Source of the DNA: Lonicera japonica
Lineage: Eukaryota; Streptophyta; Magnoliopsida; Dipsacales; Caprifoliaceae
Assembly: GCA_021464415.1 (NCBI GenBank)
Contig: CM038470.1
Coordinates: 34,714,099 to 34,778,098, forward strand
DNA length: 64,000 nt
Direction of reading: 5' to 3'
Shown here: piece after piece, positions 1,853 to 58,301 of the stretch
Layout: the number at the start of each line of letters is the position of its first letter
How positions within the stretch are numbered: position 1 is the first letter of the stretch
Notes under the pieces: generated by a model
Databases searched by the model: none
Told to the model about the DNA's origin: nothing
Seen by the model: the letters and a program-made list of their open reading frames with translations, nothing else
Made by a program: the position numbers and the translations under genes

Positions 1853-3009
1853 TGTGAGAATCCGGACCCGCGCGAGACCCGAGAGAAGAAAAAAGGGTCC
1901 TCATTCTTGGTTTTCTTAAAAAAACGTGTTTTGTAGAGTCGCCAGTTTGTTTTACGAGAAAACAAACAAAAGGTCGTACGAAGGATAATTCGAAAATGAA
2001 CTATCTTTCATACGTTTAAAAGCAGAGATTGAAAATTTACTTTGCTAGGGTTCGGGAACTACGTTACGAATTGGGAAGGTGTTAGGCACCCAATTCGCCC
2101 TTTCGGTCTCTTAATGGATCATGTATCTAATTCCTATTTTAGATATCTTGCAAGTAGTTCGAATGGTTTTCAGAATAGTCCTTTCCGGATAGATTTAGTT
2201 TAAAACAATATTTTGAAATCAGACTCGAGCTTTGCGAGCGCCTACGTATTCATTCGTAGAATGAAATCAGAGTCTCGTAGTTCCTTTCTTTTGGAAACTG
2301 TTTTTGTATTTTTGTTTGTTTTGAAAACGTGTCAAAACGGATTTTAGGTTTCTTGTAAAACTTATAAAGGATTTGTTTTGAAAGCAGTGAACTTCTTTGC
2401 AAGTTATCTAATTTTCTGTATTAAAACGAATTTAAATGCAGTATTGAAATTAAGGATGGTTGTAGAAAGACGTACCTGATGCGTCTGAAGAAGAAATAAG
2501 AGCCTCGCCTAGTTGCCTTGCTTGCTTCCTTCTCTCTCTCTAAAACTTTCTCTGTCTAGATTTTCTCTCTCTAAAACTTTCTCTCTCTAGAAATTCTCTC
2601 TCTAGAAATTCTCTAAAATGACTCTCTAAAGATTTTGACATAGTTTCTACTTACTAAAAACACTAATGAGTGTTGATCCTTTAAAATGGGAGCCCAAAGG
2701 TCCTATTTATAGGGAAAAAACTGCCAAAAACGCTCCAAAAGAGGCCAACCGCAGGGGGTAGCCGCAGGGCGTGCGACAGGGGGTAGCCGCAGGGCGTGCG
2801 GCTGGGGCGTGCGGCTGGGTCGTGCGGGCAAGAATTCCCGTCCTAGTAAGCGAAGAGGCAACCAAGGTTATATCAGACTCCCAACGCGACCGAAAATGGA
2901 GTCTTTCCTATCGGTCTTCTATATGCATGATAACAAAACACAAAAACGCAAGATGCTTGTTTTAAGAAAACCAGTGTTCACACGAGAGTCGTGGATTGGG
3001 GTGTTCACA
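1853..3009 (-). mobile_element. LTR of family A (left copy)
   Basis: On the minus strand the LTR runs from TGTGAACACCCC (3009) to CGGATTCTCACA (1853). A TATA box (CTATAAATAG on the minus strand, 2703-2712) lies downstream of a GC-rich block (2740-2830) with repeated AGCCGCAGGGCGTGCG units. A pyrimidine-rich CTCTCT stretch at 2520-2640 marks the probable start of the transcript. This LTR is flanked on one side by a primer site and gag and on the other by a PPT-like GAGAGGGTC and the 3' region. It is therefore shared by two element copies in tandem or is a recombinant. The right copy at 11869 has a longer GC-rich block. Confidence 0.88.
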
Positions 3010-5888: not shown

Positions 5889-8800
5889 TCAACGCTGAGG
5901 CGAAGGAGGAGGATCCATCGTACGCGGCCGCTTCGCTTCCGTCTTTCCCGCGCCCTCCGCCGGACTCTCCGAGATCGTACGACCCTCGCCATGAGGAGAA
6001 GGACCAAGACGGGATGTACGCCTCGACTGCTGAACCGACTGAGACGGCGCCGCCGACCGAGACCGTGACCGAGAGGGGTGATAGGTGGCAGTCGTATCGC
6101 CCGCCAAGCGCCTGCTGTACCGCCCCATGTACTCCACCGGGAAAGGAGCTGCAAACGTCAGCAGTCCGTACATGTTGAAGTAGCTCTTCAGCAACTCAGG
6201 TACCTCGCGAAGTAGGAACGAACCTCTCTGCCAAAACCAAAATTACCAATCAGTAACATTCATAAGTCGAATATACTCAACTGTTTAAAAGAAACCTTAC
6301 CTCCTCGCCCGAGACGTGTGCTAGGGCCCCCATCCGTTCATCGCCCTCAGGTATGTCAGGGATCCGGTATTGCTTGGGTAGACCGAAATCCAAGTAAGGG
6401 ATATCCCGAGGGTACTCCGGGATCGAGTACGACGCCAACGCTCCACCCTCAGGAGCCTGTGACGAACCAGCTCCACCAGCGCCGCCTACCGTGGGTATGT
6501 CCTCCCCGGTGTCCTCTCCCATCTCCGACTCGAGTGCCACCGCCTTCCCTTTCCCTTTATCACCGCCCTCACCGGCTAGGGTCTGACCGATGCCCGCCTC
6601 CACTCCCAGCTGGACCTCCCTCTCTCGTAACTCCCGGAAGACTATGCCGCGAGCCGCTCCTGAGGAAGGGGTAGACAACGAGTATGGCCTCAACCCCACT
6701 GATCCAGCACCTGGCGACCCCACGGGTGTGCGCAGCAACGGCGAGAAGGATACGTGCTGAGCCCAATCCATATCGCCGGACCCATAGACAGGCGATGATC
6801 CTGACATCGACCCGCGTCCCCCGGGTGTCTGCGCCGACTCCAGCATTTGCCGTATATCCTCTGACGACAACTGGGGTGTCCTCCCCCCCATCGACGGTGG
6901 AATAGGTGGCCTCGATACGGGACTCCGACCTCCCAATGGACTCCTCCCGCCCCTCGTAGCCCTACCTCGTCCAGGCGAGACCGCAGCAGCCGGCCCCTCG
7001 ACCCCTACTCCGCCTGACCCAACTGGGGGCGACCCACCATTGCCTCCTCCCAAGGGCACCTCCTCCGACCCCCCTTCGTCCTCCTCCTCCTCCTCCTCCA
7101 CAGGCTGCGGCTCCTCATCCCTCTCGCCATGCGGATCCTCATCGTCCGAATCCGCAATCCCCTTAGCCCTCCGGTTCGGCGCAGGGGCAGACTGATGTGG
7201 GACCCTCTGTGAAATGTAGAGCTGCCCCCGGATGAACAACGGATCTCCCCCGATAGCAGCATACCTCGCGTATATCACTCTGCCGCGCACCCCCCTCATC
7301 TCTCGCATCAAGTAGCGGTGCGCGAAGGTCCCATACTCTCCCTCAACTAGCAAATCCTCCATCGGGACGCCTCCCATGAACGCAGCCCGCTCCTCTCCAA
7401 ATAGCGTGCCCGACCGCCTCATTGCCGCTGGAGGCTAGGCCGGAACTCTGAATCCCAACCCGGGAGTGTGCTACCGCACCACGCGCTCCCTCAGGTAGAA
7501 AGCTGCCCCGTACTCGTGCAGGAACAATCGCCTCGAACGAGCCGCCACCAACGCATCCGCATACCCCCACTACTGCGTCACAAATGCGGGCCATGGGCTC
7601 CACTGCACCTGCCACATCAAACATACGCTAATAAATAACTCAACTTTCTTTTTCAAATATAATTAAAATTTTAGTTAAGTCAATCTCATACCCGGTCTAG
7701 CTGGAGGCCTGAGACGTCGCCCGCACTGACGTCCGGGGTCAGATACCGATACACCCCAACTATGTTCCCGCTGTAATACCGTCTGAAGAGCGGGAACTCA
7801 TCTGCGAAGGTCGGGTGCAGATGGATCTGACCAATACCCTGATGGGTATGCGCAATGAACCACATCTGTCACAAATTATCACAATTAATAGAACCGTCAG
7901 TTTTTATATAATAATCACATGGTTTTCTCGTAAAAAGATAAATGAGTTTTTAACTTAAATAATTACCTCCCAAAGCGTGACCAGTCCGCGATGGTTGAGC
8001 TCCATGTGCCGGCACACCAAATCCATCGACTCATACAACACCGCCAATACATAACCTCCCCAGGCAAATGTGTACAGCTGGTCGAAGAATCGCAGATAAG
8101 GCAGCCACCATAGCCGTAGGTTGTCGTCGCCCCGTGAATAGAAGAAGTCGTGAATCAATAGCAATAGGAAGCACCGAGATAGTTGTCGGACCTCCTGTCG
8201 TGTCATCGGTCCGTCCCCAAACCTCTCGCTCTCCGCCTCGATGTGATGCACCATCGCAGTGTAGGGTATCCCATCTACCACGATCCGACTCGGTCTCCAA
8301 CCCAGTGCCACTCCCATCCCGTCTAATGTAACTCGCAACCGAGGGTTGGGCGACAGAGCCTCTCCTCCAAAGGGCAGTCCCGTCAGCACGAACACGTCCT
8401 CCGGGGTCAGCGTCATCTCGCCCCAACTCCAATGGAAGGTATGCGTCGTATCCCACCATCTCTCCCCCAGTACTGTCGGCAAACTCACCGATCGTTGGAA
8501 ATCTCCGCCAGGCAGCACCTCGATGAATCGTCCGAACGGGGTCGCACTCAAATAGGCCCTCACCAACGGGGGTAGCTGATCTCGTAGCTCGGGAGCGGCA
8601 CGCGTGATACCACGGCAACGTCCACTCCTCTGCCACATCACATGTGTTAAAAATTTTTTAAGCTAATACTGGCTAATACATGTTTTAAGAAAAATATAAG
8701 CTATGTTAAGTATTTTTTTTTATGGCAAGTAATTATTAAATTTATCACATTTCATGCATATCATGTCATTGCATTCTTTTCGAAAAATCACATCATGTAA

Positions 8801-9129
8801 ATACTAAAAAAATTAAAATATACCCGAGTACGGCGCCGGATCTCGTGTGCGGCAGGCTCCATTAGCAGCCACTCCCGCCCCTCTCCCGGCGAGATCAAGG
8901 GCACATCACGGTACATCGCTCGCTGCAGCGACCCGTCTGCCCCCAGTGGCCCCTCCCAGGCCACCCCCTCCCAATCGTCGTGATGCCTCGCACAAACTAA
9001 TCGGCCGTCCATCATCGCTGTGATAGAGTCTATCTCATCGCCAGGGAGTAGCTCCGGCACCTCCCCGCCCTTCGGTGGGCCCCCCATCATCATGAAAACA
9101 AAAATCGATAGTAGCCTCGCAAACGCCAT
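5889..9129 (-). pseudogene. Plant mobile domain (PMD, MAIN-like) gene of family A, five exons
   Basis: PMD proteins (PF10536 family; MAIN/MAIL1 in Arabidopsis) are nuclear plant proteins often carried by transposons. Exons inferred from GT-AG sites and alignment to two other copies: 8824-9129, 7967-8629, 7692-7865, 6301-7608, 5889-6227. All junctions are phase 0. The coding length is about 929 codons. The PMD core is in exon 2 (motif ERWWDTTHTFHWSWGEMT, then a GLPFGG loop). Exon 4 is acidic, Pro/Gly/Ser-rich and probably disordered; exon 5 ends with a basic Arg/Ser-rich tail. In-frame TAG stops lie at 7570-7572, 7471-7473 and 7435-7437; the second is CAG in a sister copy. The start is the ATG at 9129, below a TATA box at 9237-9248. 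It is the best preserved of the three PMD copies in the window. Confidence 0.82.
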
Positions 9130-9236
9130 CACTCACTTTGTATAAGACACTCGCTAAAACTTTTTGAAAATTGGATATTTATATGCTAGAGAGAGAGATT
9201 GCAAGAAGAAGTGGTGAGAAATGAGTCAAACAGGCC

Positions 9237-9400
9237 ACTATTTATAGGAATAAGGAGCCAGCCGCAAGGTAGCCAGCCGTACGGCTGGCCCCCAACCATA
9301 CGGTTGCCTCCCAGCCGTACGGCTGGGGGGTCAAACCCTGCGGCTACCCCCAACCGCATGCTCCCAGCCGCACGCCCTGCGGCTACCCCGTGCGGCTACC
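9237..9400 (-). promoter_or_regulatory. Promoter of PMD gene A with CCAGCCGTACGGCTGG palindromes
   Basis: On the minus strand a TATA box (CCTATAAATAGTGG, 9237-9248) is preceded by two perfect 16-bp palindromes, CCAGCCGTACGGCTGG, at 9273-9288 and 9311-9326. A degenerate one (CAACCATACGGTTG) lies at 9293-9306. Centres are 19 bp apart. Further half-sites (AGCCGCACG, TGCGGCTAC) run to about 9400. The same half-sites fill the block upstream of the LTR TATA box in this family. Confidence 0.75.
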
Positions 9401-11868: not shown

Positions 11869-13157
11869 TGTGAACACCCCAATCCACGACTCTCGTGTTG
11901 AGTTATCATGCATATAGAAGACCGATAGGAAAGACTCCATTTTCGGTCGCGTTGGGAGTCTGATATAACCTTGGTTGCCTCTTCGCTTACTAGGACGGGG
12001 ATCGACCTGCCCGGTCAGGTCGCGGGGTGCGGGGTAACGCCCCGTTAATTTTTTTTACTTTTTTTAGTGAGCCAGCCGCACGCCCCTAACCGTACGGCTA
12101 CCTGCCAGCCGTACGGTTTGCCCCCTTATCGCAGCCCCTAGCCGCACGACCCAGCCGCACGCCCCAGCCGCACGCCCCAACCGCACGCCCCAGCCGCACG
12201 CCCTGCGGCTACCCCCTGTCGCACGCCCCAGTCGCACGCCCTGCGGCTACCCCCTGCGGTTGGCCTCTTTTGGAGCGTTTTTGGCGGTTTTTTCCCTATA
12301 AATAGGACCTTTGGGCTCCCATTTTAAGGGATCAACACTCATTAGTGTTTTTAGTAAGTAGAAACTCTGTCAAAATCTTTAGAGAGTCATTTTAGAGAAT
12401 TTCTAGAGAGAGAATTTCTAGAGAGAGAAAGTTTTAGAGAGAGAAAATCTAGAGAGAGAAAGTTTTAGAGAGAGAGAAGGAAGCAAGCAAGGCAACTAGG
12501 CGAGGCTCTTATTTCTTCTTCAGGCGCATCAGGTACGTCTTTCTACAACCATCCTTAATTTCAATACTGCATTTAAATTCGTTTTAATACAGAAAATTAG
12601 ATAACTTGCAAAGAAGTTCACTGCTTTCAAAACAAATCCTTTCTAAGTTTTACAAGAAACCTAAAATCCGTTTTGACACGTTTTCAAAACAAACAAAAAT
12701 ACAAAAACAGTTTCCAAAAGAAAGGAACTACGAGACTCTGATTTCATTCTACGAATGAATACGTAGGCGCTCGCAAAGCTCGAGTCTGATTTCAAAATAT
12801 TGTTTTAAACTAAATCTATCCGGAAAGGACTATTCTGAAAACCATTCGAACTACTTGCAAGATATCTAAAATAGGAATTAGATACATGATCCATTAAGAG
12901 ACCGAAAGGGCGAATTGGGTGCCTAACACCTTCCCAATTCGTAACGTAGTTCCCGAACCCTAGCAAAGTAAATTTTCAATCTCTGGTTTTAAACGTATGA
13001 AAGATAGTTCATTTTCGAATTATCCTTCGTACGACCTTTTGTTTGTTTTCTCGTAAAACAAACTGGCGACTCTACAAAACACGTTTTTTTAAGAAAACCG
13101 AGAATGAGGACTCTTCTATCTCTCCTCTCGGGTCGCGCGCGGGTCCGGATTCTCACA
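11869..13157 (+). mobile_element. LTR of family A (right copy, 3' LTR)
   Basis: The LTR runs from TGTGAACACCCC to CGGATTCTCACA. The region at 12064-12260 carries many copies of AGCCGCACGCCCC and AGCCGTACGG, several exactly 13 bp apart (12139, 12152, 12165, 12178, 12191). A TATA box, CTATAAATAGG, follows at about 12296-12306. No primer site follows; the sequence enters the 63-bp repeats of element B at 13158, so this is the outer end of an element inserted into B. CATTG (13158-13162) would be one target-site copy; the other is not visible. Confidence 0.87.
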
Positions 13158-14368: not shown

Positions 14369-14453
14369 TGTTGCGCGACATCTCGGTGGAGAGAAGTTTG
14401 TCGCGCGACAAAGAGCCCATTTGTCGCGTGACAAACTCAACCAATATATAAAC
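14369..14453 (+). promoter_or_regulatory. Promoter of PMD gene B with TGTCGCGCGACA motifs
   Basis: Three palindromes: TGTTGCGCGACA (14369-14380), TGTCGCGCGACA (14399-14410) and TGTCGCGTGACA (14422-14433), spaced 30 and 23 bp. A TATA box, TATATAAA, follows at 14446-14453. The PMD start codon is at 14591. The same motif fills the LTR promoters of elements B, C and D. Confidence 0.8.
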
Positions 14454-14979
14454 CCTTTGCTGAGCTCATTCCACCTCATTCTCTCCCTTCTCTTTCTCTC
14501 TCTAGGTCTCTTTCTCTCTTCTCTCAAGCACGGAAGCCCTCCCGTTTTCTCTACTTTTCCGACCCTTTACATTATTTTACTCATACGCAGATGGATCCTG
14601 CACAGCCCGATCGACTTGAGGGTGATCAGGAGGAGGTCACTTTTACTGATGCCCAGGGAGTTCTCCGGAGCAGCCCTCACCATGATGATTGGGCAGACCT
14701 CGATTGGTATGGCGAGGACGGGGTGGACCGCGGTCGGGCGGTGGTCTACCGAGACGTTACCTAGGCTGCTCCAGTCCCGGATATTCCTTGGCTCTTGATG
14801 GAGCCTGTTTCTCATGAGATCTGTCGACGGTCACTGGTATGTCTTCCTTTCGTGTATTTATTTGTTCGATTATTTCTGTCGTTTCCTGCATGTATTTAAA
14901 CAACTCTTATGTTTAGTATGCATGTCGGCCTAGAAATAACGTCCGATTTAGTGAACAAATACTTTTACTTGTGATACCC

Positions 14980-17355: not shown

Positions 17356-17357
17356 AT

Positions 17358-17368
17358 TGGTATCAGAG
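17358..17368 (+). other. Primer-binding site of copia 1 (tRNA-Met initiator)
   Basis: TGGTATCAGAG, two bases after the LTR end, is the standard plant copia primer site complementary to initiator tRNA-Met. Confidence 0.92.
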
Positions 17369-22790: not shown

Positions 22791-22832
22791 GTGAGATGCA
22801 TAGCTACATGGCTTTGAGTCTAAGTGGGAGAT

Positions 22833-27060: not shown

Positions 27061-27139
27061 TGTCGCGCGATAATCCCTCCTGGATATGGGTTTGTCGCGC
27101 GACAAACAGGTACAGGACCCTCATTTTTTGCTATAAATA
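27061..27139 (+). promoter_or_regulatory. Promoter of DUF7745-like gene B with TGTCGCGCGACA motifs
   Basis: TGTCGCGCGATA (27061-27072) and the perfect TGTCGCGCGACA (27093-27104), 32 bp apart, precede the TATA box TATAAATA (27132-27139). The ATG is 40 bp further on at 27179. Confidence 0.82.
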
Positions 27140-27178: not shown

Positions 27179-28374
27179 ATGTCTTCTTATCGCACAAATT
27201 CTGATTTTTCTTATGTCCAAGCCCAAGATGATTTGGTATCTTCTAAGAATGGTTTGAACTTTGGCGCATTCAGTCCTTTAGCGGGCTGGTGCCATCGTCC
27301 TGTAGATTTTTCCTTTTTGTTAGGCGCTTTGTATTTCTGGAGCCCTTCGGATCATCTTTTCCGTTTCGGGCTAGATGAGCTCTGCCCTACTTACGAGGAG
27401 TTTTCCTGGCTATTGCGTTCTGATACTCGTCTCCAGATGGCTGTTCCTATAGAGGAAATCGTTCCTCGAGATATGCTGATTGCTCTGTTAGCCATTCCCC
27501 AAGTGGCCTATTATGGTTTTATTATTGACGGGCTTCTTGACCTTCACAAAATGGTGAGGTTCTTTCATCGTTACGAAGAGAGAGCCTCTTATAACGTGGG
27601 GCGTACTGCGGCGGCTTTGATCTGTCTTGTTTCTGATATGCTACTGGTGACGGGCTCTTCCCGTGTTGATCCAACTATTCTGAGTTTGATTTACCATGCT
27701 AGGAATGGGGAGTCTATAGTGCCCATCGTTCTTGCAGAGACTCTGAATGGCCTAGATGATCTCCAAAGGGGGATTTCACCCTTCTTTAGGGGAAGTTTGC
27801 GTTTACTATATATGTGGTTGTTGGAGCGTTTCCGATCGGTGGGTTTCAACGGGGTTCGGCTTGACAACCCGACGCACTTCTTTCGTCGTCCCCTCTTTGG
27901 TGCTTTGACCATGTCTTCCTCTGATTGGACGATATAATTTTCAGAGAATTTTTGGGCCATTCGGTGGAACATTCCTTGGTGGAAGCTTAGGGCGATGGTG
28001 CTTAGTACAGGAGGTCAGGACTTACGTTCGGCTCCGTGGGCTCTGGTTTACCTCCTTTTATCTCTCCAGGACGTTTTTCTTTGGAAGTTCAACGTTCTTC
28101 AGGACATTCCCCTCGGCTTGAACAACTTCTCTTATGAGTCTAAGTTTGTGACCCCACATGTTTCTTTATTAGTGGAGAGAATGTGGCGTGTGTCGACTGA
28201 CCGATCGTCAATTCAACTATGCTTGTTTTGGTATTTCCAGGCCCCTCGGGCTGACATCATCCGTTCTCATTGGGGGTCTCTAAAGGGGAGTTGATTAATG
28301 ATCCCTTCCAAATAGAGTGGTTCCGGTTCATGGATTCTGAGCCTACAGAAGAAAACATTGCTTTTCCGCACTAG
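27179..28374 (+). pseudogene. DUF7745-like accessory gene of element B
   Basis: Open for 252 codons, then broken. Residues 50-80 (FRFGLDELCPTYEEFSWLL) resemble the signature of DUF7745-type proteins found in plant retroelements, a fold possibly related to PMD; I make this call from memory of the family with moderate confidence. Function is unknown. An in-frame TAA at 27935-27937 replaces a Trp codon present in copy C, a frameshift follows at about 28195, and TAG at 28372-28374 replaces a CAG. An intact gene would be about 400 residues and intronless. It lies 0.5 kb downstream of the PMD gene on the same strand and tail-to-tail with pol. Confidence 0.7.
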
Positions 28375-28666: not shown

Positions 28667-29640
28667 TACTTCTTTAATCGATCCATGTTGACTGGTGAAT
28701 GCAGTAATTGTCCGACCAAGTCTGTGAGTATGGCGGCACCCCTGTATCAGTCTCTTTGACGATGTATGGCCCAATCCACTTCTGCCCGAACTTTCCCCTT
28801 GGGTCTCTGGCTGGCTCTCAAATTTCTTTCAACATGATGTCGTTCTCATTGATACCCCGGGTCTTTACTTTTTGGTTAAATGCTCGAGCGATTCTCTTCT
28901 GATACCCTTAGTGGTGGTATGCGGCTCTCAATCTCTTATCATCTAGCAATGCCAGTTCATTATAACGCGCCTGGACCCACTCCAGCTCATTAACTTGATT
29001 CTCTAGCATTACTCTGAGGGAGGGGACCTTTAATTCAACAGGGAGGACTGCTTCCATCTCGTATGTAAGGGAAAATGGGGTTGCCCTGGTAAAGACTCTC
29101 TTGGTGGTGCGGTATTCCCACAATGCATATGGTAATTTTTTGGGCCAGTCTCGACAGGTATCGGTCATCTTGCTTAGGATATTCTTCAGGTTCTTGTTGG
29201 CGGCCTCACCTCCCATTGGTTTGTGGTCTGTATGGCGAAAGATCTGTGTCTGGTAATACTGTATTCTTCCATGACTGTGTTAGCCTCCCTTCGAAGTGGG
29301 TGCCGTTGTCCGAGATGATCTCGTGTGGGACCCCATACCGACATGATATTTCGTCTAATGAATCGGGCAATTTTCTTGGCATCAAGGGTCTGAAAAGACT
29401 CGGTCTCCACCCATTTGGTGAAGTAGTCAATGGCTACCAGTATAAATTCATGGCCGTTGTTGGCTTTGGGTGCAATCTCCCAATGATGTCAATTCCCAGG
29501 TTGCGAAAGGCCAAGGAGCAGTCATGTTATACAATTCTTTTGGAGGAAGCTTCTAAGAATTTAGCATAGATTTGGCATTTGTGACAACGGCATACGTGGT
29601 TAACGCAGTCGTTCTGCAGGGTAGACTAGTAATAACCTTG
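28667..29640 (-). pseudogene. Integrase of element B
   Basis: Integrase inserts the cDNA copy into the genome. Recognisable pieces are the end of the zinc-binding region (about 29560-29640), and a catalytic core with IISDNGTHFEGRLTQS (second catalytic Asp) and an AANKNLKN segment after the expected catalytic Glu region near 29210. The C-terminal part is MLENQVNELEWVQARYNELALLD and on to KKYYQ and TAG at 28667-28669. Frameshifts near 29200 and 29400 break it. Element C carries the same region in better frame (37703-38446). It is the last domain of the gag-pol polyprotein, as expected for Ty3/gypsy. Confidence 0.85.
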
Positions 29641-30420
29641 TCTGATGATTTTGCGAGCAAGTGTATGACCGCTCATATGAGGTCCACAATCTCCCTCCAT
29701 GTATCTGATCCATCATTTTGACAGATTCTTCTTTAGTGAGACATTGTAAATGGGTCCCGTCGTAGTTCCTCTTATACAGCCTTCCGGCACAAAGTATGAA
29801 CCTTGATGCTAATCTCCTGAGTGTGACCCGCGTTCTCTTGTCTGTTTGCTCGGGATACCGATGATTTTCCAATAGGTTCCAGATGTCGTAAAACCAAGTG
29901 GTTGAGTCCCCATTCTCTTCATTCTCTACCTCAAGGGCCATGCAGTGTGCTGGTCCTGATCTTCTTTGTACGATGAGAGTTATTTCTTCCATCCCCTCCG
30001 GGATATCGATCATAGATGTCAGGGTTGCTAGTGCATCCGCGAAATTTTTTTCTGACCTGGGAACATAGTAAAACTCCAAATGCTCAAATCTTTTTGTGAC
30101 ATCCTCTAGCCGGGTTAGGTAAAGGACTAATTTTTCATCTCTGATCTTCCATTCTTTTAGAACTTGGTGGACTAATAATGCTGAATCTCCGTACACTTGT
30201 ATTCTCTTTATACCCCTTTGGAGTGCAATCTCTAATCCGATTATACAGGCTTCATACTCGGCCATATTGTTGGTGCAGAAGAAGTCTAGACGATACGATA
30301 CCAGGGAGTGAGTTTGGTCTGGGGAGACAACAGATGCCTATCCCGTTCCCGTTTCGGTTGGCGGCCCGTCAAAGTATAATTTCCAGTCTTCATCGATCTC
30401 GACACTCATGATAGTTTCAT
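29641..30420 (-). pseudogene. Second (archaeal-type) RNase H of element B
   Basis: The minus-strand frame starts near WKLYFDG (first catalytic Asp region, about 30390) and continues MAEYEACIIGLEIALQRG, YGDSALLVHQV and FADALATLTSM, the pattern of the archaeal-type RNase H carried by Tat-lineage elements in addition to the usual one. It would degrade RNA in RNA-DNA hybrids during reverse transcription. A linker with RLYKRNYDGTHLQCL follows and leads into the integrase zinc finger. The domain is close to intact, but the polyprotein around it is not. Confidence 0.82.
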
Positions 30421-36258: not shown

Positions 36259-37706
36259 TGTGAGAATCCGCAAATGCGACCCCCGGGTCTCATTCCCGTT
36301 GTTGGGCGTCTGAAACGTCGGAGAGGATTTTGTCGTTCCATTTGCTTCATTGAGTTTGATAATTCAATATCGGGTGTCCCTCTACCCTATTTCTAGATGT
36401 AAGAGGGTTCGTTTAGAGTCGCCAGTACGTTTTACGAGAAAATGGACAAAAATGGTCGTGTAAGAGGAAAGGCTACATATAAGCATTTCTTTACACGTTT
36501 GTCTACGAAACCAGGATTCTATAGGGTTCGAAAACTATGTTACGGATTGGGAAGGTGTTAAGCACCCATTCTGCCCTTTCAGTCTCTAGTGGTCTTATAT
36601 GTTTATTTTATGTTGAAAAACTTGGATGCTTTTACTGACAGTCTACTACTTTCCAAGTGAAAAACCCTAATTCTTGGGAAAGACGGGGAAATGGATGAAA
36701 ACCTTTGTGTTCCGAGATCCGATATTTTGTTTTCAAAAGAGATAAATACAAGTGACGAAAGTTTTTTAGGAGAGATAGAGTTTCCCGCTTTATTCCCTCA
36801 AATAAATGACGATTTTCTCGGGTTCTTTTGGAAAAGTTCGGATCTTGTATCGGGACTAATTTAATGTGGAATTAGAACTCTTAAGGGGAATTCTACCAAA
36901 CATATCATAGTCTATGGAAGAGACAGGATATACCGGGTTTTTAATTCCTAAGTTAGTTTTACCGGTCCGGGTTTTGAAAACATAATTTTATCCGGATGAT
37001 AATTTACTCACTCTTCTGGTTTTGTAAATGATTTTATCGGGTCTTTTGTTTTGAAAACAATAGACTATTTGTAACTTGACAATAAGTTTATTCAAATAAA
37101 ATGTGGACAGAACAACGGAAGTAAAACAAGTACACAGATATCTAATTAAAACACTAGAAGGGACTTTCTTTACCTTCCCGATGAGAATAATAATAAGAAA
37201 GAAAATATAATATGGCAGAGAGGTCTCCGGCGATAATTATCTTTTCCTTCCTCAGATATTTTCGAGAATTTGATTCCAGAAGCGGGACACGTCGAGTGTC
37301 GAGAGTAGATTCTATAATTTTTCAGAAATAAGACGATAATATAAAATGCTTGACGAAATACTAAAAAATCAGATGTATAAGCCAATAATTCTTCAATCCC
37401 AAGTTGCTGTCCTTGAACCCTTGGGGGTGTTAGCCTATTTATAGTGCTCGAGGGAGAATGTTGCGCGACATTTCCCCAGAAAGGGCAAGTGTCGCGCGAC
37501 ATGTTGATTAATGTCGCACGACAAACGGCTGAAGTGATGTCTCTGACAGACTGATGTGTCAGAGAGTGGATGGTCTGGGTCAGAGGGGTTTGTCGTGTGA
37601 CATAAGGGGGTTTGTCGCGCGACGTCTCAATATGTCGTGCGACAATCCTACTTAAAAACATGTTTGTCTGGCCAACAAAACCTTTCGGGGTAGTTTCGGG
37701 TGTTCG
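36259..37706 (-). mobile_element. 5' LTR of element B, truncated at its outer end
   Basis: It ends CGGATTCTCACA (minus strand) at 36259. Compared with the LTR of C it lacks about the first 95 bp and stops at CGAACACCCGAAAC, where the sequence passes directly into the integrase of element C (37703 onwards). The U3 holds six TGTCGCGCGACA-type palindromes and a TATA box. Confidence 0.87.
37433..37644 (-). promoter_or_regulatory. LTR promoter of element B with six palindromes
   Basis: On the minus strand, palindromes start (low coordinate) at 37633, 37613, 37591, 37512, 37490 and 37459, spaced 20, 22, 79, 22 and 31 bp. A TATA box, CTATAAATAGG, follows at about 37434-37445. Five of the six deviate from TGTCGCGCGACA by one or two bases, mainly C-to-T or G-to-A at CpG. 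Confidence 0.85.
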
Positions 37707-39965: not shown

Positions 39966-40044
39966 TGTATTTATAGCAAAAAGTGGATCCTGTACCTGTT
40001 TGTCGCGCGACAAACCCACGTCTAAGAGGGATTGTCACGCGACA
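39966..40044 (-). promoter_or_regulatory. Promoter of DUF7745-like gene C with TGTCGCGCGACA motifs
   Basis: A perfect TGTCGCGCGACA at 40001-40012 and TGTCACGCGACA at 40033-40044, 32 bp apart, lie upstream of a TATA box (GCTATAAATAC on the minus strand, 39966-39976). Same spacing as in copy B. Confidence 0.82.
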
Positions 40045-40386: not shown

Positions 40387-43300
40387 TTAAGCACACTTTG
40401 ACACGCTCCCACTATCACCCGAGCCCTCCTCGAGAGTGAGATCAACTACTGGGACTTCCTGAAGGGGGGACAGCTGCCTGAGAGGGCCCCGTCGACTAAA
40501 CAGGAGCCGTGGGACGGATCACCGAGGATCGAGAGCACCTAGAAGTCTGACTACTACTCCTACGGCACTCCGTCCGGGCGCGAGAGGAAATCAGAGGGTC
40601 GTCTGCCCGTAAAGAAACATCAATCGCCCTCTAGTAGTCAGGCATATACGCTATAGGGTCTCGACCGACGAACTGGAGAAGGTTCCAGTTGTAGAGGTAC
40701 TGGGCATGAAGGGCTTTCAGGTCCGTCGCACGAACATTCACCCGCTGTAAAAGACATCAGAAAAGGTAATTAGCACAAGTCGGGATAAACCAATATGAAA
40801 GAGCAGTAAGAAATATAATAAAGAATATTCCTCATCACCGGTACGACCACCCAAGTAATCAAAAGTATCCTCAGGAAGAGGATACTCGGGCATTGTGTAT
40901 ATACGTAGACCAGCGCTAACATAAGTGATGTCCCGGGGAAGTGGTTGTATATTAACCAGAAGAATAGACGAACCTGTCGGGGTAGCCACGAAAGTAGATC
41001 CACCCTCCTCACGGATCAGGAATAAGGGATGCCGGGAAGATGAGCCGCTGAGACCTGGAGATTGAGCCGGAGGGCCTTTGACCGTCGGTGGAAGAGGGGT
41101 GAAGGTAGCGTATGTATGAACGCCTGGGGGATCCGCAACAGCTATATCCCTCAATGGAGGGACCCCACTAGAAGGAGTAGCCACCACATCAAGAGGGGTC
41201 CACCCGAACTGCTCGTAGTCAGCCCTAAAATCCTCGGGCTCCCAGGACCTCTCTGAAAAGCCTGGTCCTCCTCTCTCAGCGACCTCAGCATCATGAAAAA
41301 TAACCCCAGGAGATACTGAAGGACTAGTGGGAAACTCAAAACCCTCGGCATCAGCACGCTGCTCCTCCATAGGCGTAGTCTGAGGTGGCTGCTCAGGAGT
41401 CGCCGTTGTCCGACCTCCTTCACCCCCCTCAGGTCTATCGCCCCCGGCAGTAGCAGGAACACCCCTCTCTCCCTCAGGATCCTCATCGTCAAAATTTGGA
41501 ATGTTGTCCTTCTGATCGGGGATGGGTGGAAGGTGTTCCGGGATCGTCCTAGCCAGATGGGTCTACCCTCGAATATAGTTGGGGTCGCCACCCAACGCCT
41601 GATACCGCTCATAGAAAATTCATCCCCGAGTCCCCTTCCGCTCCCTCATCAAGTAGCAGGTGGCAAAGGCAGCATAGTCTCCATCCTTTACAAATGTCTA
41701 AAAATTGAGGCCGTCCACCAGAGCCTGCACCGTCACCGGGTCGATCTCGTCCGTCTGCCTCATCAGAACTGATGGAAATAGCAGAACTCGAGGCCACTAG
41801 GCCGGTGTATGCTGGCGAATAACCCTCTCGCCCAGATAAAAGTAAAGATTGTACTCATCCCTAATAAACCGCCTGGTCCTTGAGGCGGTCAAAGCACGGC
41901 CATATCCAAACAAGAGACCCAGATCGCCCTAGAGGGCCCACTCAATCTAAAAAGAGAATAAATTTCATTCAGTTATTTTTATTTTATTTCTGTTGTTATT
42001 ATTTAAAATGAAATAATAAAGTACTTACATGCTCCTCCAACAGGTCATGGATCGCAGTAGCTCTGGTCTCCCGGGTCTGGTATACATAAGGAGCCCTGTA
42101 GTTCCCTGCTATGAACCGGCAGATAAGGAAAAACTGATCCTCATTCTCAACGAGGAGATCCACCTAGGCTCGACCTAGGCGGGTGTAGGCCACGAACTAA
42201 CTTTAAAAAGACAAGGAAGAAATAGAGAATATTAGCAACAATCAGCGGATAAAATGTAAAGACTAAAGCAAAGAGAAGGGGCGAAAATATATACCTCCCA
42301 CAGCAAAGAAAAGCCCTTGAGGTTCAAGGCTAAATGACGAGAGACCTGGTCCATAGCATCATAGAGGACAGCCAGAATGAAGCCGCCCCAGTCATAATCG
42401 AACATAATGCTGAAGTCTCGGATGTAGGGCAGCCACTAGAGAATGGGTCGTGTCCCCCCCACGGGCCTCAAACAAATCATGGAGCGTCAGCAAGAGAAGA
42501 ACGCGGGCATACTGGCGCGCCTCCTGTCTAGTCATCGGCACTCCTGAGGCAGCCAGTCGAGCTCTTCCTGTCGCCAAGCGTGTAACCAAGATAGCCCGGG
42601 GTATCGTATCACCGGAACTCCGTCACTCCGAGAACCATCCTAAAGCACTAACAATACCCTCCGCAGTAAGACACAAGGGAATGTCAATCTGGATAGGGAC
42701 TCCCCCCGAAGGTATCCCAATCAGAGCAAACAAATCTAGGGGGATCATCGTCATCTCTCCCCAGCTCCAGTGAAAGGTATGGGTGGTGTCCCACCAATGA
42801 GAGGCCAGCGCCGACACCAAGACTGCTACCCTAGACACTCGCTTTGGTAGGGCATCGAAGAAAGAACCAAAAGGAGTCGCAAAGAGTAACTCCTGGACAG
42901 GGGCCGATGCATGTCGCCACTCTAAAGAAATGGTGTTGGGAGAACCCCAACCTCGGCCAACCCACTGCAGGTAACAAACAGAGACGTATATGTAAGTATA
43001 GGGCTATAGGGGTAAATTATGTAATTTTCTAAACCTGAGGATATTTTGGTGTAAATATGAGAGTTATAGGGTTATAAGGGTAAATTATGTAATTTTTTAA
43101 ACCTGAGGGTATTTTGGTGTAAATATGAGAGTTATAGGGCTATAGTGGTAAATTATATAATTTTTTAAACCTGAGGGTATTTTGGTATAAATATAAGAGT
43201 TATAGGGCTATAGGGATAAATTATGTAATTTTCTAAACTTGGGGGTATTTTGGGGTAAATATGAAAGTTATAGGGTTATAAGGATAAATTATGTAATTTT

Positions 43301-43925
43301 CTAAATCTGAGGGTATTTTGGCATATATATAAGTGTAGGGCTATAGGGGTAAATTATGTAATTTTCTAAACCTGGGGGTAGTTTGGTGTAAATATGAGAG
43401 TTATAGGGTTATGGGGTAAATTATGTAATTTTCCAAACTTGAGGGTACTTTGGTGTAAATTATAGGAGTTATATAGCAATAGGGTTAAATTGTGTAAATT
43501 CCTAAAAATCTAAGGGCATCACGGTAAAGTATGTGTTCTCTAAAGAAATTGGATAATATTATCAAGCAAGCATGTGTACTAACATGAGAATTATTTGAAA
43601 CATGCAGGAAATAACTGAGATAATAAATAAATAAACAGATAAAAATACATAAAAGGAAGGATTCTCAAAGAGAACGTACCAGAGATCGACGACAGATCTC
43701 ATGAGAGACGGGCTCCATCAAGAGCCAAGGAACGTCCGGGACTAGAGCAGCCTGGGTAACGCCCCGATAGACCACAGCAAGACCGCGGTCCACCCCGTCC
43801 TCGCTGTACCAGTCAAGGTCCGAACAATCGTCATGATGAGGGCTGCAGCGAAGAACTCCCTGAGCATCGGTAAAGGTGACCTCCTCCTGGTCACCCTCAA
43901 GACGATCTGGATGTGCGGGATCCAT
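40387..43925 (-). pseudogene. PMD (MAIN-like) gene of element C, five exons, uninterrupted by insertion
   Basis: Exons on the minus strand: 43680-43925, 42295-42964, about 42029-42202, 40831-41946, 40387-40744. Exon 1 starts MDPAHPDRLEGDQEEVTF. Exon 2 carries the PMD core (SHWWDTTHTFHWSWGEMT, then GIPSGG). Exon 4 is acidic and Pro-rich; exon 5 has ALHAQYLYNWNLLQFVGRDP. TAG stops at 41797-41799, 41698-41700, 41563-41565, 40631-40633 and 40496-40498 all replace CAG codons of copy B. The donor after exon 4 reads GA instead of GT (40829-40830), and the exon 3 acceptor looks damaged. It is not functional but shows the uninterrupted structure of the gene that copia 1 split in copy B. Confidence 0.82.
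42985..43510 (-). repeat. AT-rich tandem repeats in PMD intron 1 (element C)
   Basis: Degenerate units of about 60-70 bp containing GGGGTAAATTATGTAATTTT and ACCTGAGGGTATTTTGG, the mirror of the 68-bp array at 14980-15660. Fewer copies and more decay than in B. Confidence 0.85.
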
Positions 43926-44060: not shown

Positions 44061-44123
44061 GGGTTATATACTAGTCACGTTTGTCGCGCAACAAACCCCT
44101 TACCACCGAAGTGTTGCGCGACA
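44061..44123 (-). promoter_or_regulatory. Promoter of PMD gene C with TGTCGCGCGACA motifs
   Basis: TGTCGCGCAACA (44082-44093) and TGTTGCGCGACA (44112-44123), 30 bp apart as in copy B, lie upstream of a TATA-like element (TATATAACC on the minus strand, 44063-44071). The start codon is at 43925. Confidence 0.75.
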
Positions 44124-45509: not shown

Positions 45510-47047
45510 TGTAGACACCTCGATCCGTGACCCCCGCAAGAACCCTAACGACTACCGAGAAGTACAGTTTTTGGGTCCGGGACCCACCCGAGCACCCGAA
45601 ACTGCCCCGAAAGAGTTTGTTGGCCAAACGAACTTATTTTTAAAGGGGATAATCGCGCGACAAACTAGTATGTCGCGTGACAATCTCTCTTATGTCGCAT
45701 GACAAACCCCTCTGACCCAGACCATCCACTCTCTGACACATCAGTTTGTCAAAGACATCACTTCAGCCTTTTGTCACACGACATTGCTCATCATGTCGCG
45801 CGACACTTGCCTTTTTTAGGGAAATGTCATACGACAATCTCCCCCGAGCACTATAAATAGGCCAACACCTCCAAGGGTTCAAGGAGGCAATTGGGGATCT
45901 AAGAATTCTGAGTTTATATCTGATTTTCTGGTCTTCTATCAAGTATTTTCTACGATCATCTTATTTCTGAAGAATTATCGAATCTATTCTCGGCACTCGG
46001 TGTATCGTGCTTCTAGAATCGAATTTTCAAAAATATCTGAAGAAGGAAAAGATTATTATCGTCAGAAATCTCTCTACCATATTTTATTTTCTTTCTTATT
46101 ATTATTCTCGTCGGGAAGGTAAAGAAAGTCTCTTCTAGTATTTAAAATTAGATAAATCTGTGTACTTGTTTTACGATTGTTGTTCTGTCCACGTTTTATT
46201 TGAATAAACTTATTGTCAAGTTATGAAATAGTCTACTGTTTTCAAAACAAAAGACCCTGATAAAACCATTTGCAAAACCAAAAAAGTAAGCATATTATCG
46301 CTCGGATAAAACTAGGTTTTCAAAACCCGAACCGATAAAGCTTACTTAGGAATTCAAATTCGGCATATCCTGTCTTTTTCATAGACTGTGACGTGCCTGA
46401 TAAAACTCCCCTCAAAGAGTTCTAATTCCATATTAAATTAGTCCCGATACAAGACCCAAATTTTTTTCAAGTAATCAAAACATGAGAAAACCGTCATTAT
46501 CTGAGAAAATAATGCTGGAAACTCTCTCTCTTAAATAAAAAGGCTTTGTCATTTGTATCTTACATCTTTCAAAATAAAACATCAAATCTCGGAATACAAA
46601 GGTTTTCATCTCTTTCCCCGTTTTTTCCAAAATTAGGGTTTTTTATTCAAAAAGTAGTAGACTGTCAGTAAAAGCATCCAAGATTTTTAACATAAAATAA
46701 ACATATAAAAGACTACTAGAGACCGAAAGGGCGGAACGGGTGCTTAACACCTTCCCAATCAATAACATAGTTTCCGAACCCTGTAGAATCCTGGTTTCGC
46801 AGACAAACGTGTAAAGAAAGGCTTGTCTATAGCCTTTCATCTTACACGACCCCTTTTGTCCGTTTTCTAGTAAAACATACTGGCGACTCTGAACGAACCC
46901 TCTTGCATCTAGAAATAGGATAAAGGGACACCCAATATGAATTATCAAATACTAAGGAAGCAAATGGAACGACGGAATCCTCTTCGACGTTTCAGACCCC
47001 CACGCACGGGAACGAGACCCGGGGGGCCGCATTTGCGGATTCTCACA
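45510..47047 (+). mobile_element. 3' LTR of element C
   Basis: TGTAGACACCTC...CGGATTCTCACA, 1538 bp, preceded by the PPT-like AAGAGGGTC. TGTCGCGCGACA-type palindromes start at 45650, 45671, 45693, 45772, 45794 and 45825 (spacing 21, 22, 79, 22, 31). The TATA box CTATAAATAG is at 45851-45860. Confidence 0.92.
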
Positions 47048-47978
47048 CGGGTGAATAAGGTTTTTAAAACTTAATTAGATTTTTAAAAACAGTTTTAAAA
47101 ATATTTAAAGTATATATCAAGCAATCAAGCAAAATACTCAAGCAATCCCAAGCACAAGGAAAATATAGCAATTAATAAAAGAGCTAGAGATAGAGAGGTT
47201 AAGCCGATAGAAGTCGAAGACTTTTTATCCACATGGTTCGGCTTGTTAGACCCTACTTCCGCGCTCGGATAGTTCTCCTAGAATTTTCACTATTACTAAT
47301 CTTCATCCTGGTAAAGATCAAACCTTTACAAGTGTATCCTTCTCACACACTCTACAAATATTGATTTCTCACAACACTCACACAAGAACAACCTCTTGCT
47401 AATCTAAGAAATAAACGTCTCTTAATATTTGAAGAATAAGATTTTGGTGACAAACACTAATGTACAATAGCTCTCAAGTGTTTGAATATTACAAGTTAAG
47501 CTCACACTAAGAGATATCAAATTTGATCAACAAATTATAGCTCAAAATAATGATGATTGATCAAAATAATGTTCTTGAATCTGTGAATATTGAATATAGA
47601 TGAAGAGAATATAGTTAGAATGATTCAAGAGTGTTTAAATAAGTCTTGGATAGTGTATATATAGTCTACGACATCAAATGGCCGTTTGGAGAGAGTTGAT
47701 GGAGGTTTGGTTCCAAAAATGGTAAAAAAACATAAATCCAACGGCTAGTTTCTGGGCCATCAGTCGACTGAGCCATGCCCATCAGTCGACTGATGGTCCC
47801 CACTAGTTTGCTTCAAAAAAGCCCAAAAATCCAATTTTTTATACTTTTGCAAATTGGCTCAAAAATTAATTTTGGAACTTGAGGAATGTTAAATTTGAGT
47901 TCCTAAGTTTTCTATATAAGGGAGAGCTCAAAAATAAGGTCGTTAGAATATAAAATGAGTTTATTTCAAAAACGGTTC
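47048..47978 (-). mobile_element. Sirevirus-like LTR, distal part
   Basis: This continues, across the copia 2 insertion, the LTR that starts at 54012. On the minus strand it carries two perfect TCAGTCGACTGA palindromes (47782-47793 and 47760-47771, 22 bp apart), then a TATA box (CTATATATACAC, about 47656-47667). The outer end of the LTR is not certain; element C's LTR abuts it at 47047. Confidence 0.65.
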
Positions 47979-54333: not shown

Positions 54334-55626
54334 TCAATAAAAAAGATAGAGACCATCGCCTACTCTTGCGGGTCTTAAAGGTCTTGCGGCCATTGCCCCT
54401 AACCTTGGTCGACGAAATGGAGTCCAAATTGGAAAAACATGCTCCAAATGGTATCGAAGAAAGGCCTCTTCATGAGCTTTTTGTCGATCCTCGATACGAT
54501 TGAATCGATTGTTTATGTTGGTCGAAAGAGCTTGTACTTGACCCGAGAGCCCTTGAATGGCATGAAGCAAAGCGACATTTAAAGACTCGTCGTGTGCAGT
54601 ACGAGATCAGCGAGGGCCTTGAGAAGAAGTAGCTTGTTGTTGAAACTTGAAACCTTCTTTTTCTTCTTCAACCATTTTTTCGGAAGGAGACAAATTTTTG
54701 TCCTTATCGCAACTATGATCATCTCTATCTCGTAGATCATTAGCAGTCCATTCACCATGAACTAATCTATATTTCATCAATCGAATCACCTTGGCACTAT
54801 AGGTCTCTTCGATTATAGGTGTGATAACATCAACTTCGTCTTCTAGTCGGATGTTATAGAATTTGAACAATTGAGTGAGGGTCATGCCGTAGACCAATCC
54901 TTGTCTTTTTCGGTTAGTGATTTCAAGTAGGTGATGGAACATGAGGTTACCATAATCCAATTTGTGTTCCAGTGTAATAGCCCATATCAAGAATAATTCT
55001 AAAGCATTCAGCGAAGCACAAATACCACACCTTGGAATGATTGAATTGCCAAGTATAGACTGAATGAGCTGGGCTTCGAGTTTGAGCATTGAAGCCTTAA
55101 TTTCATTTCTCGTGTTACGAAACCTATGTTTGAGGAGAATGCCTTTGGCTGCATTTTTCTCAAAACCAAGAAAGTTCCCAAAGTTGGATGGAACCTCATT
55201 CACATTGTCTACGGGAAATCCAAAAATTTGAGCTAGCTCAACCTTGTTAAAGCCAATCCTTTGGCCATTCAACAAGGTAACAAGTCGGGCCTTGTTGGGA
55301 CGTCTATTATCAAGCAAGGGATGATGCAATTTTGCATAAAAGAGTCGAACAAGTCGATGATAAATATTCTCACAGATACTTAAGAAATTAATGATACATT
55401 GGTTTTGAAATAGAGCCGCAATATTCAATCCATTAGACGCAAACAATTGAAAATTGAATTGTTTACCTTTAACTATTGTGCGAGTTGAGTAGTCATTGTT
55501 GAAATTTTCTTGAACCTCATCGGAGATGAACAATGGTGGGAGGTTTGCTTATTGAGGAGCTCCTAGCGATGTACCAACTTGAGCTACATAACGCCTAGCA
55601 CAACGTGGTCAAGAGCCTTGAGACAT
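54334..55626 (-). pseudogene. Extra ORF of Sirevirus-like element (putative plant transposon protein domain)
   Basis: A single reading frame of about 430 codons lies between pol and the 3' LTR, on the same strand as pol. The start chosen is the ATG at 55626. TGA near 55610, TAA near 55549 and TGA at 54607-54609 interrupt it without shifting frame. The core (LVRLFYAKLHHPLLDN, NGQRIGFNKVELAQIFGFPV) resembles the 'putative plant transposon protein' domain (PF20167-like), which is often found in accessory ORFs of plant elements; I judge this from memory. A C-terminal segment (MLHAIQGLSGQVQALSTNIN) looks like a coiled coil. No membrane segment is evident, which argues against a classical envelope protein, although Sireviruses can carry env-like ORFs here. 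Function unknown. Confidence 0.65.
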
Positions 55627-56332
55627 TGTCGAAGATTTGGGGTTAAAAGGATAAGTTTTTGAAAACTTAGGGTTTTAAGGTGAGATTATGATTTTGAAGG
55701 AAAATATTGTTTTTGACCAAAGAAATTGGTAGGATTGTGTTTAGATAGGTGGGATATGAAGATTTAGTGGAGAAATTTGATGAAATGTGGGGTTTTAGGT
55801 AAGAACATAACAATGGTGGCTAGGGTTAGGTTTAGAGATAGTGTGAGAAAGGTTTGAGGATTTTGGGTTGAAAAATGTATGATTAGTGGTTGATTTGGTG
55901 TAGAATGATGATGGTTTAAGGATGGATTTGAGGAAGAAATCTGGGTGTTGATGATGTTTGTGAAGGTTTGAGGTGGTTTGGGTGAAAGTGGCCACGAAAT
56001 GGAGAGGAGATAAATAAAGAGAAAACAGGGGAAAGAAGGGGTTATGGTGAATTGGTCCCAACCACACTCAATCGACTAATGCTAGGTCTTCAGACGACTG
56101 ATCATCAGTCTTTAGTCGACTGATGATCTGTTCTACCCAGATTATTCTTGGTTTGAGCTCTTGAGGCCATATGAACCTAGAATATGCAAATAGACAACTT
56201 TTGTACTACATAAAATAATATTAGTACACGTCGAATAGTACTTATTGCACAAAATTTAATCAAATAAATTCATAATTTTGTATGCTTTAGAAACAAGCAT
56301 AATTGATCAATATACATGAATATTTTGGTCAA
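55627..56332 (-). other. Upstream region of the extra ORF
   Basis: About 700 bp with no convincing gene. It contains a degenerate palindrome cluster at 56068-56123 and a T/C-rich 5' leader on the minus strand. A 90-codon open frame at 55795-56067 is low-complexity and is probably untranslated leader. Confidence 0.6.
56068..56123 (-). promoter_or_regulatory. TCAGTCGACTGA-type palindrome cluster upstream of the extra ORF
   Basis: TCAATCGACTAA (56068-56079), TCAGACGACTGA (56090-56101) and TTAGTCGACTGA (56112-56123) are spaced exactly 22 bp apart. The same palindrome occurs twice, 22 bp apart, in this element's LTR. A TTTATTTAT stretch downstream at about 56010-56020 could serve as a TATA box. 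Confidence 0.65.
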
Positions 56333-56716: not shown

Positions 56717-58301
56717 TGTAGACACCCCGATCCGTGACCCCCGCAAGAACCCTAACGACCTACGAGACTACTTTTTTTTGGAGTCTAGGACACACCCGAG
56801 CACCCGAAACTACTCCGGGGGGGTTTGTTGCGCGACAAACCTATTTTTATGAAGGATTGTCGCACGACATATCACATTGTCGCGCGACAATCATTGGAAT
56901 GTTGCGCGACAATCCCACTATGTCGCGCGACAATCCCTCTTTGCACCCGACCAACCACTTTCTGACACATCACAGTGTCAAGACCCATCACTTCAGCCGT
57001 TTGTCGCACAACATACAGGAATGTCGCACGACATACAGGAATGTCGCGCGACAAACAGGTATGTCGCGCGACACTTGTCTTTTTTGGGAAAATGTCGCGC
57101 GACAATCTTCCCCGAGCAGTATAAATAGGCCAACACCCCCAAGGGTTCAAGGGCAGCAATTGGAATCTGAGAATTTGGAGCTTTAGATTTGATTTTTATC
57201 AAGCACTTTTCTACTATTATCTTATTTCTGAAGAATTATCGAATCTATCCTCGACACTCGACGTGTCCCGTCTCCGGAATCGATTTCTCGAAAATATCTG
57301 AAGAAAGAGAAGATTATTATCGCCAGAGATCTCTCTGCCGTATTATATTTTCTTTCTTATTATTATTCTCGTCGGGAAGGTAAAGAAAGTCCCTTCTAGT
57401 ATTTAAAACTAGATATATGTGTACTTGTTTTATTTCTGTTATTCTGTCCACGTTTTATTTGAATAAACTTATTGTCAAGTTACAAATAGTCTATCGTTTT
57501 CAACACAAAAGACCCTGATAAAACCATTTTCAAAACCAGAAGAATAAGTACGTTATCGTCCGGATAAAATTCTGTTTTCAAAACCCGGACTGATAAGACT
57601 TATTTAGGAATTAAAAATCAACATATCCTGTCTTCTCTATAGACTGCGATGTGTCTGATATTTCTCCTCTCAAGAGTCATGATTCCATATTAAATTAGTC
57701 CCGATATGAGATCCAAATTTTCACAAAAGTAATCACAACCCGAGAAAACCGTCATTATCTGGGAAATAATACGGGATACTCTCTTTAAAAATAAATATAA
57801 CTTTTATCATTTGTATTTTACATCTTTTAAAACAAAAACATCGGATCTCGGAACACAAAGGTTTTCATCCTTTTCTCGTCTTCCCCCAGAAATTAGGGTT
57901 TTCATTTGAAAAGTAGTAGACTATCAGTAAAAGCATCCAAGTTTTTCAACATAAAATAAACATATAAGTCCACTAGAGACCGAAAGGGCGGAATGGGTGC
58001 TTAACACCTTCCCAAACTGTAATATAGTTTCCGAACCCTATAGAATCCTGGTTTCGCAGACAAAACGTGTAAAGAAAGGCTTGTCTATAGCCTTCCCCCT
58101 TACACAACCTTTTTGTCCGTTTTCTCGTAAAACGTACTGGCGACTCTGAACGAACCCCTTTGCATCTAGAATAGATGTAAGGACACCCGATATGAATCAT
58201 CAAACAACTCCAAGCAAATGGAGCGACGGAATCCCTTTCGACGCTTCAGACCACCACGAACAGGGACGAGACCCGGGGGGTCGCATTTGCGGATTCTCAC
58301 A
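56717..58301 (+). repeat. 5' LTR of element D
   Basis: TGTAGACACCCC...CGGATTCTCACA, 1585 bp. It carries the richest palindrome array of the window and a TATA box (TATAAATAGG, 57120-57129). Confidence 0.93.
56826..57129 (+). promoter_or_regulatory. LTR promoter of element D with ten TGTCGCGCGACA-type palindromes
   Basis: Copies start at 56826, 56858, 56878, 56900, 56921, 57002, 57022, 57042, 57062 and 57093. Intervals are 32, 20, 22, 21, 81, 20, 20, 20 and 31 bp, mostly two or three helical turns. Five are perfect TGTCGCGCGACA. The TATA box begins 16 bp after the last copy. Confidence 0.9.

Follow-up and report, generated by a model that had tools for sequence, protein, structure and literature searches.

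Family-specific palindromes common to the LTRs and the accessory-gene promoters of nested retrotransposons in Lonicera japonica

The window analysed here, a 64-kb stretch of Lonicera japonica DNA (C8:34,714,099-34,778,098), is made up of nested long terminal repeat (LTR) retrotransposons, three families of which carry accessory genes of PMD, DUF7745-like or Transposase_32-like type. In each family, a palindrome of its own recurs in the unique 3′ region (U3) of the LTR and in the promoter of the accessory gene. From the sequence, these palindromes are predicted to be binding sites of each element's own accessory protein, which would act on the accessory promoter and on the LTR, and this reading is considered rather likely. 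Family A is an Ogre-like Ty3/gypsy family with three copies in the window (E1, E2 and E3), and its accessory genes (PMD and DUF7745-like) are oriented opposite to gag-pol. Family B, represented by E4, is a second Ogre-like family in the left part of the window. Family C is represented by TE-D, which we take, by eye, to be a SIRE-like Ty1/copia element. The family A elements, genes and sites are as follows.

E1, plus strand: 5′ LTR at ~56716-58301
56826..57104: ten palindromes in the U3 of the E1 5′ LTR
E2, minus strand: 5′ LTR at ~36259-37706, accessory region from 29391 down to 13158
37459..37644: six palindromes in the U3 of the E2 5′ LTR
27061..27104: two palindromes at a spacing of 32 bp, upstream of the E2 DUF7745-like gene (27061-27072 TGTCGCGCGATA, one mismatch; 27093-27104 exact)
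27132..27139, plus strand: TATAAATA of the E2 DUF7745-like gene
27179..27937, plus strand: E2 DUF7745-like gene, an open frame of 252 amino acids to the stop, antisense to E2 gag-pol
14369..14433: three palindromes upstream of the E2 PMD gene (14369, 14399 and 14422; spacing 30 and 23 bp)
14591..14843, plus strand: E2 PMD first coding exon, with the start codon at 14591 and the 3′ end placed approximately, by eye; a copia insertion splits the gene
E3, plus strand: accessory region 37707-45277, 3′ LTR at ~45509-47047
39968..39975, minus strand: TATAAATA of the E3 DUF7745-like gene (start codon 39927-39929)
40001..40044: two palindromes at a spacing of 32 bp, upstream of the E3 DUF7745-like gene (40001 exact; 40033 one mismatch)
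42701..43925, minus strand: 5′ part of the E3 PMD gene, with the start codon at 43923-43925 and a match to PF10536 within 42701-43003
44082..44123: two palindromes upstream of the E3 PMD gene (44082 and 44112; 30 bp apart)
45651..45836: six palindromes, one with three mismatches, in the U3 of the E3 3′ LTR

With up to two mismatches, TGTCGCGCGACA was found at 30 sites in the window, where 0.58 were expected and 100 shuffles gave three at most. Three LTR U3s hold 21 of these sites and four accessory promoters the other nine, with none elsewhere in the window; a 31st site, with three mismatches, lies at 45825 in the E3 U3. The same palindrome ranks first of all 4,096 12-bp palindromes in the window (25 matches at up to one mismatch), the runners-up being tandem-repeat units. 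The original prediction had placed such sites just upstream of the TATA boxes of the DUF7745-like and PMD genes, opposite to gag-pol and kilobases from the LTR. All its positions and spacings were recovered when the window was re-scanned. Measured from the proximal site, the TATA box starts 16 bp further on in all three LTRs and 12 bp further on in both PMD promoters; in the DUF7745-like promoters the distances are 28 and 26 bp. The E3 PMD promoter is ~1.4 kb and the E3 DUF promoter ~5.5 kb from the E3 3′ LTR. Spacings between sites are 20-23, 30-32 or 79-81 bp; compared with E2, the promoter of the E3 PMD gene has a 23-bp gap that merges sites 2 and 3. The 31 sites together have 28 mismatches, of which 24 are CpG-to-TpG/CpA transitions; most variant sites therefore look like decayed perfect palindromes. 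The likeness reaches an 18-bp palindrome, GWW-TGTCGCGCGACA-WWC, and not demonstrably further. Stronger constraint on the sites between E2 and E3, whose accessory regions are 80-84% identical, was not demonstrable with so few sites. Helical phasing was set aside: the short spacings fit ~10.5 bp, but a period scan singles out no period.

Families B and C carry different palindromes, AGCCGTACGGCT and TCAGTCGACTGA, in the corresponding places.

9260..9397: array of family B sites upstream of the E4 PMD gene, with AGCCGTACGGCT at 9275 and 9313 and ARCCGYA half-sites (11 half-sites in total)
12074..12261: U3 of the right E4-family LTR (~11869-13157, limits by eye), a family B array with palindromes at 12088 and 12107 (one mismatch each) and 13 half-sites
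2747..2816: five family B half-sites, without a full palindrome, in the U3 of the left E4-family LTR (~1853-3010, minus strand)
8791..9132, minus strand: frame of the E4 PMD gene with the first coding exon
7958-8662, minus strand: E4 PMD core (PF10536, E 4.6e-22)
47760..47793: U3 of the TE-D 3′ LTR (~54011-53573 plus 47978-47049, minus strand, limits by eye), with two exact TCAGTCGACTGA at a spacing of 22 bp
56068..56123: three family C palindromes, 22 bp apart, upstream of the TE-D Transposase_32-like gene (56068 two mismatches; 56090 and 56112 one each)
54607..55548, minus strand: Transposase_32-like (PF20167) accessory frame of TE-D, in the direction of the RNase H-like frame

At up to two mismatches, AGCCGTACGGCT occurs four times in the window vs 0.79 expected, in each case in the right E4 U3 or the E4 PMD promoter. 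The three E4 arrays hold 16 of the 21 AGCCGCA half-sites of the window, in which 2.87 were expected. The family A motif within two mismatches is absent from the right E4 U3 and the E4 PMD promoter; matches with three mismatches do occur in E4 arrays, at 2767 and 12217. For TCAGTCGACTGA, 1.63 matches were expected in the window, which holds two further 2-mismatch matches outside the family C arrays.

The association between family and palindrome was examined by scanning all 4,096 palindromes with none preselected, the E4 and TE-D promoter regions having been picked after the motifs were noticed. Four U3/accessory pairs were compared, two from family A and one from each of the other families. 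In every pair the family's own palindrome came out as the best common one, with at least two matches on each side, and 0 of 400 dinucleotide shuffles did as well for any of the four. At this level of at least two matches, the matrix over 14 regions was block-diagonal. A palindrome was shared by 12/12 U3/accessory pairs in family A, 1/2 in family B and 1/1 in family C, and by none of the cross-family pairs. The unmatched family B pair is that of the left E4 LTR with its half-sites only. At a single match, the TE-D accessory region has a palindrome in common with the LTRs of TE-C, an element without a palindrome array that was used as control. The background was set up without the promoter regions, without six tandem-repeat tracts and without pairs sharing a 16-mer; 0 of its 98,815 pairs of 400 bp share a palindrome with two matches on each side. 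LTR and accessory motifs thus co-vary, each family having its own palindrome, as the original prediction had proposed to check. Its suggestion of a single factor that could control the LTR as well as both accessory genes is supported by this co-variation and has to be sharpened: the motif is family-specific, which makes a protein encoded by the element more probable than one host factor common to all. Judged by sequence, control of the LTR and the accessory genes is probably family-specific and element-encoded.

Genome-wide counts were taken over the 886-Mb assembly. Exact TGTCGCGCGACA occurs 29,561 times vs once for the reversed control. The first 50 exact places among the matches listed, a sample picked by motif and all on contig 1, fall into 14 regions and lie without exception in family A LTRs or in PMD or DUF promoters; the accessory promoters among them are four PMD (three sites each) and two DUF (two sites each). 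A second sample was based on protein: 150 of 3,577 DUF7745 candidates were scored and the 30 closest loci examined. Every one of the 30 has a site no more than 150 bp from its start codon; 29 have at least two sites and 23 have three perfect sites 32 bp apart. Absence of the motif from accessory promoters of family members, which would have spoken against the original prediction, was thus not seen in family A. Because most of the 30 loci are near-identical young copies (one being the window's own), they show maintenance of the motif and not its independent origin. Across the fetched family A loci, 71 of the 76 spacings under 120 bp are 20-23, 30-32 or 80-81 bp, and five fall outside these classes. 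The DUF7745-carrying family itself looks young and abundant, judging from the number of candidates; among the matches listed, three have an internal stop and many have an equal score.

TCAGTCGACTGA is found 6,644 times genome-wide vs 13 for its control. The 20 regions that hold 44 of 50 places among the matches listed all match TE-D-family LTRs, a Transposase_32 promoter (L063) or both (L068). The TE-D-family copy at C1:2.343-2.353 Mb has a spacing of 22/19/22 bp in its U3 array and again in its accessory array; 47/48 palindrome bases are identical between the two and 9/27 spacer bases (shuffle p 0.23). A second copy (L068, L069) has, by eye, equal spacing in both arrays and more decayed accessory sites. 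Sites and spacing kept while the intervening DNA is free is what a multi-site protein complex would require. A CTGGCAG block also stands ~20 bp upstream of the palindrome array in the U3 and the accessory promoter of family C (L062-L064, L068).

The accessory promoters could also be duplicated pieces of U3, their palindromes inherited or exchanged by gene conversion. Some long identities speak for this: a 27-bp stretch between U3 and PMD arrays in family B, and in the E1 U3 a 20-bp stretch with the DUF promoters and a 21-bp stretch with the E3 PMD promoter. The 7-bp CTGGCAG block of family C is not beyond chance (50/300 shuffles). On the other side, the 12-base flanks of the family A accessory sites resemble LTR flanks only at the level of a column-permuted null (sum p = 0.27, best p = 0.18), with one of 18 flanks reaching p = 0.024. 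When the motifs in the family A promoters are masked, the alignments to U3 stay inside the spread given by 12 shuffles per promoter; the common pieces include the TATA box. In family C the spacers diverge as described while the palindromes do not. Recent U3 copying is unsupported in families A and C on these grounds, and the original statement that the motif is not simply LTR sequence stands for family A; in family B, copying may have taken place. Any duplication would be old, with the sites alone retained, and would therefore imply selection on them. As a whole, this explanation is considered improbable.

A role of the palindromes in the genomic RNA, as self-complementary dimerisation or packaging loops, and not in promoter DNA, is the least probable of the explanations considered, and very much so. 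Both sets of sites would lie within the transcribed element, and retroviral dimer initiation sites are GC-rich palindromes. The sites in the window, however, form arrays of up to ten and stand at the short distances of 12, 16 or 26-28 bp from TATA boxes described above, and in the 30 closest DUF copies the TATA box starts 27-28 bp past the proximal site, as derived from the listed offsets.

Alternatively, each family might use a host transcription factor for both promoters, a different one in each family, so that both fire in the same cell. The half-sites resemble the plant elements TGTC (auxin response factors), CGCG (CAMTA) and AGCCGCC (ERF), the family B half-site AGCCGCA being near the last; control of LTRs by the host is common in plants. 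Against this, the family A sites look more like a private code, given their genome-wide excess over the control and the position of all 50 places examined within the family. Perfect palindromes of 12 bp to 18 bp in arrays with recurrent spacing are not known to be typical of those host elements, and the structure closest in fold to the PMD model is that of a transposon-encoded DNA binder. Such a host factor is regarded as a less likely explanation than an element-encoded protein. The latter is weakened mainly by the small numbers for family B and by the chance that the families use different host factors.

The candidate binders would be the PMD and DUF7745-like proteins in family A, PMD in family B and the Transposase_32-like protein in family C. 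The E4 PMD matches PF10536 with 79.1 bits, above the curated cut-off of 34.9, and is homologous to the family A PMD (53% over 76 core residues; 38% over 79 first-exon residues). The E2 and E3 PMD pieces score below this cut-off; the E3 piece, in which only part of the gene was scanned, reaches 29.3 bits (E 6.3e-07). All nine members of the PMD alignment match PF10536 at E ≤ 1. The DUF7745-like protein P0001 matches PF24924 weakly (10.8 bits against a cut-off of 26, E 0.26); 5/10 members of its alignment match at E ≤ 0.1, the best at 1.7e-06, and its relative P0005 (44% identity) is annotated with PF24924. The TE-D accessory frame scores 39.1 bits (E 9.1e-10) against PF20167, below the cut-off of 45, and its relative P0011 (59% identity) carries PF20167. 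The sole named relative of this frame is P0012 from Lonicera macranthoides (69% identity over 55%). The VANC21-DNA structure 9lnj was the best structural neighbour of the PMD model; VANC21 is absent from the DUF7745 VIA list, which carries little weight. No match with E below 0.6 came from a sequence search of the PDB. No common profile or fold was found for PMD, DUF7745 and Transposase_32, the modelling covering the first two.

In the proposed mechanism, the accessory protein would switch on, or keep unsilenced, its own promoter and the LTR of the element. Each palindrome would be read by a dimer, and adjacent dimers would cooperate. Low expression of the accessory gene could feed back on its own promoter until the protein suffices to activate the LTR, which would amount to a threshold switch. 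The sites contain CpGs, so methylation and binding would be in competition, and the protein could be an anti-silencer as VANC is. If protein and sites changed together, the effect would be limited to the element's own family. In its widest form, the proposal would be that Ty3/gypsy Ogre and Ty1/copia SIRE elements both run private protein-operator switches, in which an accessory protein, with a VANC-like fold at least for PMD, reads a family-specific palindrome in its own promoter and LTR with a fixed multi-dimer geometry, protein and palindrome changing together in new families. For this wider form, the case for and the case against are evenly balanced.

By analogy, VANC would be the nearest precedent for the predicted binding and anti-silencing. 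In the portions of the reports available, VANC of Arabidopsis VANDAL transposons (Mutator-like elements) binds short motifs arrayed in its own non-coding DNA, and the motifs differ among related families (PMC5735166, PMC10398659). The elements described here would resemble it in a transposon-encoded protein, an arrayed short motif in the element's own non-coding DNA and a motif differing by family, as well as in the modelled likeness of PMD to 9lnj. In contrast to VANDAL, LTR retrotransposons carry the genes here, the motif takes the form of a 12-bp palindrome near a TATA box, and the proteins are PMD, DUF7745 and Transposase_32 and not clear DUF1985. The nearest circuit would be that of foamy virus Tas, a vertebrate retroviral protein which, in the excerpts consulted, is reported to act on the LTR and an internal promoter. 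An accessory gene with its own internal promoter is common to both, and feedback on that promoter and on the LTR is predicted here; the action on both promoters is in our case deduced from the shared sites.

Antisense accessory genes are known in Tat-lineage plant elements, namely Grande gene23, Retand TRP28 and Ogre PMD (PMC7264820, PMC11963269, PMC6317226, PMC9289625), and the genes described here equal them in place and direction. According to the sections available, gene23 is driven by a promoter of its own and its product is nuclear, PMD occurs in 57% of Ogre elements and a transcriptional role has been suggested for accessory genes (PMC7264820, PMC11963269, PMC6317226). Those sections describe no DNA site common to LTR and accessory promoter. 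No report of such a shared palindrome was found in the literature searched, which left most subscription journals outside. The term 'DUF7745' appears in none of its papers, and exact TGTCGCGCGACA in the available text of one, on a chicken methyltransferase gene. The Arabidopsis PMD proteins MAIN, MAIL1 and PP7L are required to express genes with a 'DOWN' promoter motif, to which direct binding of MAIN/MAIL1 is not shown in the portions available (PMC7156037, PMC9899485). This motif was set aside: CATGCAGTTT in the MORC1 promoter, as given in the accessible text, is a different sequence (PMC9899485), the comparison being by sequence only. Viral contigs scanned with the tandem motif, DUF7745 and a pol piece gave nothing, and a primer-site pattern was found in one contig, L001, without the motif within two mismatches.

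The placement of the families rests on the following. In Ogre/Tat elements a second RNase H follows the reverse transcriptase (RT)-RNase H and precedes the integrase, by the part of the account available (PMC6317226). E2 has this order, with RT_RNaseH_2 at 30341-31096 (minus) and then RVT_3 at 29603-30337 (minus); an integrase-like frame was recognised by eye in E3 at 37709-38392. The antisense PMD gene between pol and 3′ LTR likewise agrees with Ogre/Tat; for E4, the pol side is not in place within the window. In TE-D, the features recognised by eye as copia and SIRE-like are the LSTTEAEYMAVGSC frame at 56468-56719 (minus) and the polypurine tract-LTR junction near 54011.

TE-C, with LTRs of ~1475 bp and called copia by eye, is inserted in the E2 PMD gene, interrupting the E2 accessory region at 15881-24307; it is also present in the TE-D 3′ LTR at 47979-53572, with extra LTR copies. 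Within the PMD gene, 68-bp tandem repeats separate the first coding piece from the second, at 14974-15690 (E2) and 42989-43540 (E3). The stretches 1853-5769 and 9423-13157 form large inverted arms, ~93-97% identical in the main BLAST pieces, that hold E4-family sequence (3′ region, 114-bp tandem repeats and LTR). The left E4-family LTR is followed by primer-site-like sequence on the minus strand, as if an LTR were shared or the elements lay head to head.

A family-specific cis-site common to LTR and accessory promoter makes a direct binding test possible, and the predicted sites are listed above. If the proposal is true, it would give a function to the long-unexplained accessory genes of plant retrotransposons, which would then be plant counterparts of foamy virus Tas. 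PMD proteins, MAIN and MAIL1 among them, would be tied to the recognition of specific DNA sequences, and the result could be a collection of plant DNA-binding proteins whose 12-bp targets are known.
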